From Parvularia atlantis (taxonomy: Eukaryota; Opisthokonta; Rotosphaerida): a DNA stretch of 49,311 nt. Position 1 is the stretch's first letter, and each line of letters opens with the position of its first letter. Shown here one piece after another: positions 71 to 49,200 of the stretch. The stretch is from contig CALSCO010002195.1 of the NCBI GenBank assembly GCA_943704415.1, forward strand, positions 1 to 49,311, in the 5' to 3' direction. The position numbers and the translations under genes were made by a program. The notes under the pieces were generated by a model. The model saw only the letters and a program-made list of their open reading frames with translations, made no database searches and was not told where the DNA came from.

Positions 71-379
71 AGGCCGCACCCATTCAATCAACGACGGCAG
101 CGGCTGCTTGCACGTCAGCAGGCGCTCGGTCACGAGCACGCCCGTGGCCACGTCGACGCGCCGGTCGAGGATGTCGACGTGCGTGACCTGGGGGCAGTTG
201 TCGTTCGGATACTTGTTCCACGCGGCGAGCTGCGAAGGCGTGCGAAGGCGAAGTGGCGTGGAGAGTGTCGTTTGAGTCATCGCAACGCGCGCACGCGCGC
301 GGCGAAGGGAGGACTGCCCGCGCACCGTCACGAACGCCCACGGCCGGTCGAAGCGGTGCTCGTTCGAGAAGAACTTCAT
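1..379 (-). CDS. PRELI/MSF1-domain protein, 5' part (Ups/Slmo family), cut by the contig end
   Basis: Two exons are visible. Exon 1 (326-379) reads MKFFSNEHRFDRPWAFVT. A short intron (230-325, GTGCGC...GCAG) follows. Exon 2 (80-229) begins LAAWNKYPNDNCPQVTHVD and ends LPSLIEW, then an intron opens into the GA/CT repeat. The start (K-hydrophobic-x-E-H-x-F-x-x-PW) and the AxxxKYPN...V.HVDxLDR block are the hallmark of the PRELI/MSF1 domain. These proteins shuttle phospholipids across the mitochondrial intermembrane space with a TRIAP1/Mdm35 partner. Only the first ~68 residues are present, so PRELID1, PRELID3 and Ups2 types cannot be separated. The ATG is taken at the conserved domain start. 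Confidence 0.88.
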   Translation of the reverse strand, partial: MKFFSNEHRFDRPWAFVTVRGQSSLRRARARVAMTQTTLSTPLRLRTPSQLAAWNKYPNDNCPQVTHVDILDRRVDVATGVLVTERLLTCKQPLPSLIEWVRPLLPLSPSLSLSLSLSLSLSLSLS

Positions 380-523
380 GCCCTCTTTTTTTTTTTTGCC
401 GCGCGAGGGACGACGACGAGGCGGAGGCGGCAGGAAGTGAGATAATGAACGGACGTACCCACGTGGCCTCAATCTTATCGCGTGACTCACGCTGTCCTTC
501 GTTTGACAGCGGCCGTGTGTACG
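380..523. promoter_or_regulatory. Divergent intergenic region, PRELI / unknown gene
   Basis: 144 bp between divergent starts. A run of T lies immediately upstream of the PRELI ATG (about 385-397). I see no TATA-like box. Confidence 0.4.
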
Positions 524-1027
524 ATGTCTGTGGTCGTCATCACGCGCGTCGCCTACGACCTGCGGCCGACGCGGCGGCGCGTGGCGGTGCGCGCTCACCT
601 GCCCGCCGCACGCTGCGCTCGCGGCTGATACGCACGCAAGATGCCGCCGGTGCACAAGCCGCGCGCGCACTCGCCCGGCCCGCGTGACGCACGAGTGCCG
701 GCGGGCGAGTGCCAGAAGCGTCGTCGCGTGAACCCGGACGAGGCCGCCGTGCTGGACGGCCTGACGCGGCTGCAGCTCGCGCCGCGCGCGCCGCAGGCCC
801 CGGCCGCCCCGGCCGAGCAGGTGCCCGCCGCCGCGCCCACGACACGCCGGCTCGTCTTCGACGACAGCGGCTACCTCGCTGTGGCCGATGACGCGGCCCC
901 ATCGCCGCCGCCCGAGACCGACGCGCTCGTCGCCGCGCTCGCCCAGGTGCACGTTACCGAGCGGCCCGCGCCCGCCCCAGACACCCCCGACGTCGCGCCG
1001 ACCCTGTTCATGCCGTACATTGCGTGA
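524..1027 (+). CDS. Unrecognised small Ala/Pro-rich protein
   Basis: The solid part is an open frame from ATG at 641 to TGA at 1025-1027 (128 residues). It has a basic patch (QKRRRVNPDE, a possible nuclear signal), a central A/P-rich stretch, then RRLVFDDSGYLAVADD and an end rich in P and T. An upstream exon is possible: ATG at 524, 21 codons (MSVVVITRVAYDLRPTRRRV...) to 586, then a 54-nt intron 587-640 (GTGCGCGCTCACC...ACGCAAG). That intron has the local donor; the AAG acceptor is less usual but occurs in XRN1 here. I do not recognise the family. The stop lies 9 bp from the MTO1 stop on the other strand. The gene is supported by its fit in a compact array and by the intron grammar, not by homology. 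Confidence 0.5.
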
Positions 1028-46176: not shown

Positions 46177-46227
46177 ATCGCGCGAGCGTGCAACAACAAG
46201 CAGTTGACAAAAGTAAGACTCCCCTTC

Positions 46228-49200
46228 TCAAGTCGGGCGCAGGACGAGCGCCGTGCGCGACGGGATGTACACCTGGCCGCGCACGCGTCAGCCGGCAGCG
46301 CGCGTGCGCGGACAGGGCGCGGCGTGCCTGGATCGAGTGCCGGCGGCCGTCGAAGCCGTCGCCGCTCGAGAAGTACTCGGACGTGGCCTGCACATGCTCC
46401 TGCCCGCCAAAGCGCTGGCTGTCGGTGTTGAGCACGATCACGTACCTGCTCGCCGCTGCCGTCAGCCGCGCACGCTCACCGTGTGGCCCGCACGCACTTG
46501 CCCGACATCTCTGTGCCGATGCGGTAGTCCGTGAACGACTTGCTCGAGTGCAGGTTGAACACAAACAGCAGGCCCGCGCGCTCGTACACGATCATCTTGT
46601 CGTCCTCGTGCTTGCGTGAGACGTACGCCTGCCCTACCGTGTCAACACCACCGCCGCACGTGTGCGCGACACGGCCGCACCGGGTCCGCGCGCAGCCAGT
46701 GGAACTGCTCCTCGACCGTGTTCATCGCCCGATCAAACTCGTTCAGGAACTTGTACCGCAGCAGCTCGTCGTCCACGAGGTTGTACTGTCGGCGCGCGTA
46801 GTGATAGCTGCCGGGCGCACGACGCGGCGCGTGAGCAGCCAAAAGGCGCGGTGAGCGCGGGCCTGACCTGTCATTGTTGCCCTGGCGCGGAAAGTCGAGC
46901 CACTCGGGGTGCCCAAACTCGTTCCCCATGAAGTTGAGCCAGCCCTCACCGCCGAGCGAGTGCGTGAGCAGGCTGCGCCACGCCACGTCAGGCCGCGCGA
47001 GCTGGCGCGCGCACGCTGCGCCCGCACCGGATGAGCTTGTGCAGCGCCAGGCCGCGGTGCACCGTCGGCGTGTAGACCGACAGCATCGACATGTTTGTGT
47101 ACATCTCCTGTGGAACGAGGGTCAGCCGGCACCGCGCCCTGCAGCGCCGCCGTCAGACGCACGGCGTCCATCAGCCAGAACGCGAGCGTCTTATCGCCCA
47201 CGAGCGCCTGGTCGTGGCTCTCGGCGTACGCGATCGTGTTCTCCTTCCAGCGACGGTTGGTCATCGTGTGAACGATGTGTCCAATGTTCCACTGCTCGTC
47301 CTGCGGCCCCGTCGCGGTCACCTCGTGCGCCACAACACTCACTCGCCGCCCGTGCCGCGCGCACCTTGAACTCCTTAAGGTACTTGATCCACATATCCGG
47401 GATGGCCATGCCCAGGCGGTAGTCAAAGCCAACGCCGCCCTCGGCCACGGGCCGGCACAGCGTCGGCATGCCGGAGACGTCTGTGCGCAAAGGCGTCAGC
47501 GCTGCGCGTGCAAAGCGATGCGGCGCGGTGCACCCTCGGCGATGGTGACCACGCTCGGGCTGAGGCGGTGCAGCAGTTCGTTTGCCTGCGCGGCTGGGAT
47601 GAGGCCGCACCGTGCCGGCCGGCAGTGCGCTCGCGCCTACTGCGCACCAGCATCATGTACACAACAGCCTCCTGGTCGACGAGCATGCCAAAGTACTCGT
47701 TGTAGTCGCCGCTGAAGCCGTAGCCCATGCCGTGGTGCACGTACAGCTGCGTGCGGCGCGTGAGCGCACCGAGGCGCGGCTGCGGGCGGACGCACCATCG
47801 ATGTCACGCCGTCAAAGCGGAAGCCGTCAAAGCCGTATTCCTCGTAGTACCAGCGCAGGTTCGACAGCAGGAAGCGCAGCGTCTCCCAGTGGCCGTAGTT
47901 GAACAGGCGGCTGCGCACGTGTGGGGGGTGTCGCCGCAATGAGCCTTTGCCGACCGCGACCAGCGCGTACACCTGTCCCACAGGTCGTGGTTGCCCTTTC
48001 CGCCGCCGTGGAAGTAGCAGTAGTCCGTGCCGTCAAACATGTTGAGACCATCAAGCACTGCCAGGGTGGGGGCGCGGGGATCGGTGGGCAGGCCGGTCGT
48101 CGCGCAGGCGCCGCGCACCGTTCTTGGACGCATGCGAGTGCACAACGTCGAGGAAGACGGCGACGCCGAGCTTGTGAGCCTCGTCCACCAGGCGCTTGAG
48201 CGCCTCGGGCGTGCCTGCGCCGGCCGCAGTGAGCCGCGCTGCGCACCTCACCGGTCCGCTGCCGCCGCCGCACCGAAGCGGCTCGACGCGGCGAAGAAGG
48301 AAGTGACCTGGTAGCCGAACGAGGCGTAGTAGGCGTGCTCCATCACGGCCATCAGCTGGATCGCGTTGTAGCCCTGGCACACGACGCGCGGGAGGATCTG
48401 CTCACGAAAGTCGTCGTACGAGGCGATCTTGCCCTCGGGCGTGCAGATGCCGACTGCGCACGAGCAATGAGACCGCCGAGCGCCCACGTCACGCAAAGCC
48501 GCTCGCACCGTGCGACTCGTAGATCTTGAGACCGGTCGACGATCCCAGCGCCGGCCGCGCGTGCTGGAACGTGAACGGCTGGGGCGGGTCCCAAAACACG
48601 GCTGCGCGCGCGGGCTCAGCGGCGTTGCGTGGCCGCGCGGGCAACCAACGCACCCTCGTATAGCGGGCTGACGGCGCGGTCCTGCACGACGCGCACAGCC
48701 CACGGCGACAGCCGCTCCAGGTGCTCGCCCTGCTTGGTGACGATGACGAGCTGCCGACGCCGCGCGTGAGGCCGCGCTGCCGCACCGCCGAGGCCGGTCC
48801 GTGCGTGCATGCACCTTGACCTTCGTGTTGTGCGCGATCGCGCGTGTGCCGTCGGGCTTGTCGGCCAGGAACAGCTCCCAGACGCCAAAGTCCGTGTGTG
48901 CAAGCGCGTGGCTCTCGCGGTTCCACTGGTCTGCCGCGCGCGGGGCGAGGGAAGCTGAGCGGCGCATGGCGGTGATGTGCCGCCATCACGCACTGAACTC
49001 GCCGAAGAGGAACGCCGCGGCCGCGTTCGGGATCCACTCGCGGTAGCGCAGGCCGCCGGCCTCGCGCTGGAAGCCGAACTTGCGGTAGCCCTGGCTGAAG
49101 CGCAGCAGGCCGCCCTCGTGCTCGTCCAGCTGGCCGAGGATGCGTGTGAAGGCGCCGAAGCTGACGCGCGTGTCAGGCGGACGCTGCGCACGGGCCGCGC

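Follow-up and report, generated by a model that had tools for sequence, protein, structure and literature searches.

How does a spliceosome with apparently ordinary small nuclear RNAs (snRNAs) come to start most of its introns with GTGCG? The question is raised by a contig of 49,311 nucleotides from Parvularia atlantis, an opisthokont amoeba allied to the fungi (GenBank CALSCO010002195.1, contig C529 in our numbering), the whole of which is the window of this analysis and which is densely filled by gene models with short introns. A first-pass annotation of its sequence had noticed the GTGCG donor, and suggested that either U1 snRNA has a compensating change or contacts of U6 or of proteins dominate. 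Position +4, where C has replaced A, is where recognition by U1 and recognition by U6 diverge, and its tie to N6-methyladenosine (m6A) in U6, to METTL16 and to SNRNP27K is under current study. In this amoeba +4A is almost gone, though candidates for both factors and the relevant snRNA contacts remain, and Parvularia is in effect a natural test of how cells recognise the start of an intron. The account favoured below, at a probability of roughly 0.6, is that of an ordinary U2-type system in which GC pressure has shifted the donor consensus from GTRAG to GTGCG, with +4 being judged at U6 and PRP8 rather than at U1.

The donor and the branch site

The assembly (16.25 Mb, 616 contigs, 71% GC) was sampled in 249 kb, made up of the window and 20 further stretches of 10 kb each. 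Genes were called with a hidden Markov model in which the donor was fixed at GT and the donor positions downstream of it were left at background. For this donor-free model training was confined to codon use and composition; a second version, the trained model, was allowed to learn the donor and was fitted to its own calls. Since learning of that kind may feed on itself, the donor was verified twice, by spliced alignment for GBE1 and by a homology choice for NAT10. The trained model gives 1045 introns of median length 58 in the 249 kb; the published genome, of 19.24 Mb, is reported to have about 4 introns per kb with a mean size of 60.67 bp (PMC9492541).

Even the donor-free model has GTGCG at 447 of its 1025 introns in the sample, the next pentamer, GTGTG, reaching 38, and the contrast with GT decoys within trained-model introns, where GTGCG is 433 of 2742, is strong (Fisher p 8e-67). 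With learning the count becomes 716 of 1045 and the profile +3G 89%, +4C 85%, +5G 84%, +6C 50% and +6T 28%, the exon side being weak (-1G 66%, -2A 33%). In the window GTGCG is at 95 of 209 donors in the donor-free model (60 of 126 on the minus strand, 35 of 83 on the plus) and at 156 of 219 in the trained one, where +4 is C in 194 and A in 4. The spread over genes and strands that had been claimed is real, as 22 of the 23 trained gene models in the window have at least one GTGCG donor, and GTGCG is present at each of the four sites singled out in the first-pass annotation: 325 (minus strand) and 3742, 10937 and 11338 (plus strand). All four are donors in the trained model and three of them in the donor-free one, which missed 3742. 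Gene names in the window are those of that annotation or are presumed, GBE1 being the one identified by search.

230 to 325, minus strand: intron of the gene named PRELI, donor GTGCGCGGGC; donor in both gene models
3742 to 4004, plus strand: intron of the gene named TOPBP1, donor GTGCGCTCTC; trained model only, the weakest of the four
10937 to 11007, plus strand: intron of the gene named Rab, donor GTGCG; donor in both gene models
11338 to 11428, plus strand: intron of the same Rab gene, donor GTGCGTGCCG; donor in both gene models

Could all this be an artefact of calling genes in a GC-rich genome? The rise in GTGCG when the model was trained on its own calls is what such a suspicion would point to, and the gene for glycogen branching enzyme (GBE1) is what answers it. 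The predicted GBE1 protein is 100% identical over its whole length to the EukProt entry Unigene8767_Nuclearia_a (best 120 of 7997 matches considered). Parvularia atlantis was formerly Nuclearia sp. ATCC50694, for which a transcriptome exists (PMC6299283), and we take Nuclearia_a of EukProt to be this organism and the entry to come from its published transcriptome. Exact spliced alignment to that protein, with any intron ends permitted at lengths of 35 to 159, leaves exactly one GT-AG placement in 17 of the 18 introns (13 GTGCG, 2 GTGCA, 1 GTGTA and 1 GTCAG); the 18th has no GT-AG among its 6 placements, one of which is GC-AG with donor GCACG. The trained model had recovered all 17 GT-AG introns exactly and the donor-free model 13 of the 17.

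46231 to 49281, minus strand: GBE1 gene, 18 introns; spliced product identical to Unigene8767_Nuclearia_a letter for letter
49161 to 49210, minus strand: GBE1 intron 1, donor GCG/GTGCGCGT; sole GT-AG of 4 placements yielding the transcript protein
48931 to 48993, minus strand: GBE1 intron 2, donor TCA/GTGCGTGA; sole placement within 9 nucleotides yielding the transcript protein
47301 to 47364, minus strand: GBE1 intron 12, donor AAG/GTGCGCGC; sole GT-AG of 4 placements
46808 to 46867, minus strand: GBE1 intron 15, donor CAG/GTCAGGCC; the single +4A intron among those fixed by evidence
46273 to 46327, minus strand: GBE1 intron 18, GC-AG, donor CAG/GCACGC; from placements yielding the transcript protein, and also called as GC-AG

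For NAT10, on another contig, frame-keeping GT/AG pairs within 36 nucleotides of each predicted intron were scored against 8 homologs of the 120 listed, a choice that is not wholly model-free, as the candidates are confined to the neighbourhood of trained-model introns. Its 23 introns comprise 17 with GTGCG, 2 with GTGTG and 1 each with GTCTG, GTGCC, GTGCA and GTACG, so that 20 have +4C; for introns 5 and 14, where homology and trained model differ (for intron 5 by 0.2 score units), the homology choice is the one counted. The third NAT10 match is from Fonticula alba (61%), the other nucleariid named in PMC6299283, and among the best 120 of 5694 matches there was no protein labelled Nuclearia. 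In the 41 introns thus fixed by evidence, with none left out and the GC-AG intron of GBE1 scored as +4C by its GC-AG placement, +4 is C in 36, T in 4, A in 1 and G in 0, and GTGCG is the donor of 30. The two genes, whose introns were fixed with no donor model, agree with each other, and an artefact of gene calling, which GBE1 refutes and NAT10 refutes less strictly, is extremely improbable as an account of the genome. GTGCG is its prevailing donor.

No branch motif was built into the gene finder. CTNAC nevertheless occurs in 618 of the 1045 introns (it is absent from 427), with its A at a median of 18 nucleotides from the intron end, and each form far outnumbers its own reverse complement: CTGAC 353 against 21, CTCAC 251 against 32 and CTAAC 20 against 4. 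The base before the branch adenosine is likewise shifted to G or C, CTAAC being rare, though U2 retains GUAGUA. Acceptors are CAG, chiefly GCAG. With GT-AG and minor GC-AG ends, a CTNAC-like branch site and five snRNA genes, these are U2-type spliceosomal introns.

Composition and preference at +4

How much of the C at +4 is simply what a genome with 71% GC and an abundance of GCGC words offers? If +4 were unconstrained, C there would mirror composition and nothing more. In the window the bare word GTGCG is just 10% over-represented (591 against 536 expected, standard deviation 22), inside introns it is the commonest GT pentamer, and among GTGNG words C is found in 2843 of 4850 (59%) over the whole sample. 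Part of +4C is thus composition. With +3G and +5G fixed, however, donors (donor-free model, branch motif required) have C:T:G:A of 245:19:10:2 (n=276), as against 433:209:62:34 at intron decoys (n=738) and 360:98:173:60 at exon sites (n=691). For C versus the rest, donors against intron decoys, p is 1e-21. Relative to C, +4G is depleted at donors 3.5-fold against intron decoys and 4.3-fold against GTGNG words as a whole, +4T is depleted 3.5 to 6-fold against the three controls, and A falls from 34 of 738 decoys to 2 of 276 donors. The 36 of 41 evidence-fixed introns with +4C, set against 0.587, give p 9e-5, in a comparison of all 41 donors, and not those with GTGNG alone, with the GTGNG control.

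As donors stand above all three controls, the preference for C beyond composition is real: more than half of +4C comes from composition, and to it is added an extra preference for C over all three other bases. The earlier claim that the uniformity is stronger than GC bias alone predicts therefore survives a comparison of like with like, and the +4 composition of donors is not that of background intron sequence. Composition alone, which the donors exceed on each of the three controls used, was rejected, and a +4 position wholly free of constraint is an unlikely explanation.

The snRNA genes and the candidate U6 factors

Might a variant U1 or U6 pair with GTGCG by Watson-Crick rules? The search found a single gene for each of U1, U2, U4, U5 and U6, and the contact sequences are canonical: U1 starts AUACUUACCUGG, U6 retains GAUACAGAGAAGAUUAG with the ACAGAGA box, U2 has GUAGUA and the U5 loop has GCCUUUUAC. 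In the 16.25 Mb of the assembly there is no second copy of ATACAGAGAAGATTAG at up to 1 mismatch. As the published genome is larger, at 19.24 Mb (PMC9492541), a variant gene could be missing from the assembly; the genes found are nevertheless unchanged in precisely the two places, the U1 5′ end and the U6 ACAGAGA box, where a change had been proposed to be looked for. A compensating change in either was rejected, and is very unlikely. For U1C the genome search gave just a short match, and for LUC7 exon matches on two contigs.

The sole U6 gene found (C142, L002:1501-1662, plus strand) has a peculiarity of its own, in that it is split by 48 nucleotides, L002:1560-1608, inserted between AUUAG and CAUGG within the AGC catalytic triad. 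Just two cuts restore the conserved U6 sequence and neither is GT-AG. U4 UGCUGAU pairs with the joined AUUAGCA at -9.0, as against -5.2 and -6.5 for the interrupted sides, and so working U6 probably lacks the insert. Two explanations offer themselves: an unusual pathway excises it, or the gene found is a dead copy and the assembly lacks the functional one. The insert has no significant hairpin (z -1.5), and no second copy of it was found in the assembly. In fission yeast an mRNA-type intron lies close to the catalytic nucleotides of U6 (PMC10484740); of the literature searches, those on introns of U6 genes gave no result and one on mRNA-type introns gave two fission-yeast papers.

There is a precedent for loss of +4A that does not involve a change of snRNA. 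In Saccharomycotina, loss of METTL16, of SNRNP27K or of a particular methionine in the latter accompanies +4U (Parker et al. 2023, PMC10581693), and a comparable loss of the U6 m6A system could in principle have erased the preference for +4A here. The Parvularia genome, though, has candidates for both factors. That for METTL16 (L003:1114-2535, minus strand) has NPPFY and, at the C-terminal end, a WNRRARR block that could be aligned with three relatives, and its best solved relatives are structures of the U6 A43 methyltransferase. The SNRNP27 (SNRNP27K) candidate has a methionine aligned to human M141. Moreover, the yeasts without these factors went to +4U and not to +4C, whereas here, against the three controls above, the ratio of T to C is lower by a factor of 3.5 to 6. 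What can be said for such a loss is that the N-terminus of the METTL16 candidate is unplaced, the MH-RN-Y start of its relatives not being seen, and that its transcript was not found: of 11 matching proteins, from 8000 candidates sharing most words, 0 are from EukProt and 0 are labelled Nuclearia. Loss of either factor was rejected, on the presence of both candidates and the M141-aligned residue, and as the cause of the altered donor it is distinctly unlikely, more so than composition. The METTL16 candidate frame is open and intronless save for one call of 15 nucleotides, which is unusual in this genome, and its N-terminal part holds a repeated VTRVQQL stretch. If the candidates are functional, +4A can disappear without the loss of METTL16 or SNRNP27K, and what replaces it can be C.

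GC-AG introns, the reading of +4 and its parallels

What then judges +4? The U1 duplex is computed at -10.2 kcal/mol for CAGGUGCGUA, -14.6 for GTGAG and -13.8 for GTGGG, ordinary uridine standing in for pseudouridine, so that +4C costs 3.5 to 4.4 kcal/mol of U1 pairing (about 4 against A and 3.5 against G). G at +4 would preserve most of that pairing, yet it is avoided at donors. The minority of GC-AG introns is a built-in experiment that parts U1 pairing from the preference at +4. With GC donors allowed, and +3 and +4 left unmodelled, there are 48 GC-AG calls, 25 of them with a branch motif. Compared with 492 GT introns, also with the motif required, the 25 far more often follow exon AG (19 of 25 against 124 of 492, p 3e-7) and have +3A (14 of 25 against 18 of 492, p 2e-12), but +4A is found in just 1 of 25 (17 of 492 in GT introns) and +4C in 23. 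GC-AG introns thus recover U1 pairing at -2, -1 and +3 while leaving +4 unrepaired, which argues that the U1 duplex is not where +4 is judged. In human structures +4 lies opposite m6A43 of U6 (PMC10581693), and we infer that +4 is probably read later than U1, most simply in the U6/PRP8 contact. The cost in U1 pairing and the GC-AG pattern lean, then, towards the suggestion of dominant contacts by U6 or proteins. GC-AG introns, whose donors are mostly GCGCG or GCACG, apparently make up a few percent of the total, at 48 to 71 calls per 249 kb against 27 to 36 for control pseudo-donors. The window has 11 such calls, from the gene finder with GC donors, and 7 of them follow exon AG.

20095 to 20150, plus strand: GC-AG intron after exon AG
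22882 to 22934, plus strand: GC-AG intron after exon AG
32134 to 32215, plus strand: GC-AG intron after exon AG
32782 to 32839, plus strand: GC-AG intron after exon AG
38961 to 39022, plus strand: GC-AG intron after exon AG
46273 to 46327, minus strand: GC-AG intron after exon AG (intron 18 of GBE1, above)
11040 to 11094, plus strand: GC-AG intron of the Rab gene, donor AAG/GCGCGT, between the P-loop GVGK and SN codons

Read across the last of these the Rab protein is GDSGVGKSN, which we take to be the Rab P-loop motif.

The sequence of events that we favour would be as follows. GC pressure would have turned +3A into G and displaced +4A, and the replacement at +4 would have been C and not G because that position would be assessed not by U1 pairing but as the donor is passed on to U6 and PRP8, where C opposite (m6)A43 of the ACAGAGA box would be accepted and A and G would now be disfavoured. 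U1 would grip the site by -1G, +1G, +2U, +3G (as a wobble) and +5G, with +4 mismatched. A bolder and more tentative proposal is that +4C is a third actively selected +4 state, beside A and U, read at U6/PRP8 with METTL16, M141 of SNRNP27K and ACAGAGA all kept, and that introns in need of U1 pairing strengthen -2, -1 and +3 rather than +4. Were it true, +4A would not be prescribed by U6 m6A, and U1 would be separable, within one genome, from whatever reads +4.

Several points weigh against this account. Selection at +4 is moderate, with an odds ratio of about 5.6, as composition already favours C. In the donor-free model +4C is at just 64% of donors, with G at 20%, wrong calls being partly responsible. 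Transcript support comes from a single gene, GBE1, and at the level of protein rather than of RNA-sequencing junctions. The assignment of the reading step to U6 and PRP8 was reached by exclusion, and the U6 gene found, being interrupted, may not be the working copy. Mock donors GA and GG give 17 and 15 calls with the branch motif, and some of the 25 GC-AG introns may accordingly be false; when exon AG and CAG are also required there remain 18 GC calls, as against 3 for GA and 0 for GG, and 17 of those 18 have +4C.

Is the donor then without precedent? It is real but not unprecedented. Ostreococcus lucimarinus has, outside chromosome 2, a GTGCGTG donor, called atypical, with branch point GACTGACG, and a search for snRNA changes was proposed at that time (Irimia and Roy 2008, PMC2483917). 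The title of that paper concerns intron-poor eukaryotes, whereas Parvularia has about 4 introns per kb and its five snRNA contacts, now examined, are canonical. In Micromonas the canonical introns have an AG/GTGCGT donor and an NCTGAC branch motif, one intron class having many GC donors (Verhelst et al. 2013, PMC3879977). Parvularia shares the GTGCG donor, the CTGAC branch motif and the GC donors, but its branch point is at a median of 18 nucleotides from the acceptor in place of 43-52 bp and its exon AG is weak. A GTGCG/CTGAC system is thus known in green algae. With Parvularia taken as a nucleariid opisthokont, on the identity of its GBE1 to the Nuclearia_a protein, mamiellophyte algae and Parvularia would have reached that state independently, the likeness being convergence in working and not descent, and the algal system would have arisen more than once. 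What is new is that the system occurs independently in an opisthokont dense in introns, together with five canonical snRNA contacts, retained candidates for METTL16 and SNRNP27K, and the comparison that GC-AG introns provide. In the literature searched no report of GTGCG donors for Parvularia or nucleariids was found, and the Parvularia genome paper (PMC9492541) does not contain the word 'splice'.

Two other systems bear comparison. In Saccharomycotina, as here, +4 changed while U1 and U6 contacts were invariant, though to U and with loss of METTL16 and SNRNP27K, where Parvularia went to C and retains candidates for both; variation between A/U and G/C at donors is much smaller in that study (Parker et al. 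2023, PMC10581693). In Fritillaria borealis, too, a donor change is explained via the U6 A43 contact and not via U1 sequence, but there U6 m6A is reduced, donors are guanine-rich and 95% of introns are outside GT/AG (PMC13326754), whereas Parvularia introns are still GT-AG with a GC-AG minority.

For annotators of the Parvularia genome GTGCG is the donor to be expected. The Rab gene has in the trained model a micro-exon of 5 nucleotides, 11429-11433 (plus strand), with which the protein reads GAVGAFIVYD, which to our eyes resembles Rab proteins. A single gene model at 25641-28638 (minus strand) joins what we presume to be an ALG2-like glycosyltransferase and a SprT-like metalloprotease, and may be either two genes or a fusion. 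Two further gene models have many GTGCG donors.

19799 to 25615, plus strand: XRN1-like gene (name from the first-pass annotation); split in two by the trained model, with GTGCG at 19 of its 27 introns
36302 to 38645, minus strand: presumably a peptidase M64-like gene; predicted donors GTGCG in 10 of 10

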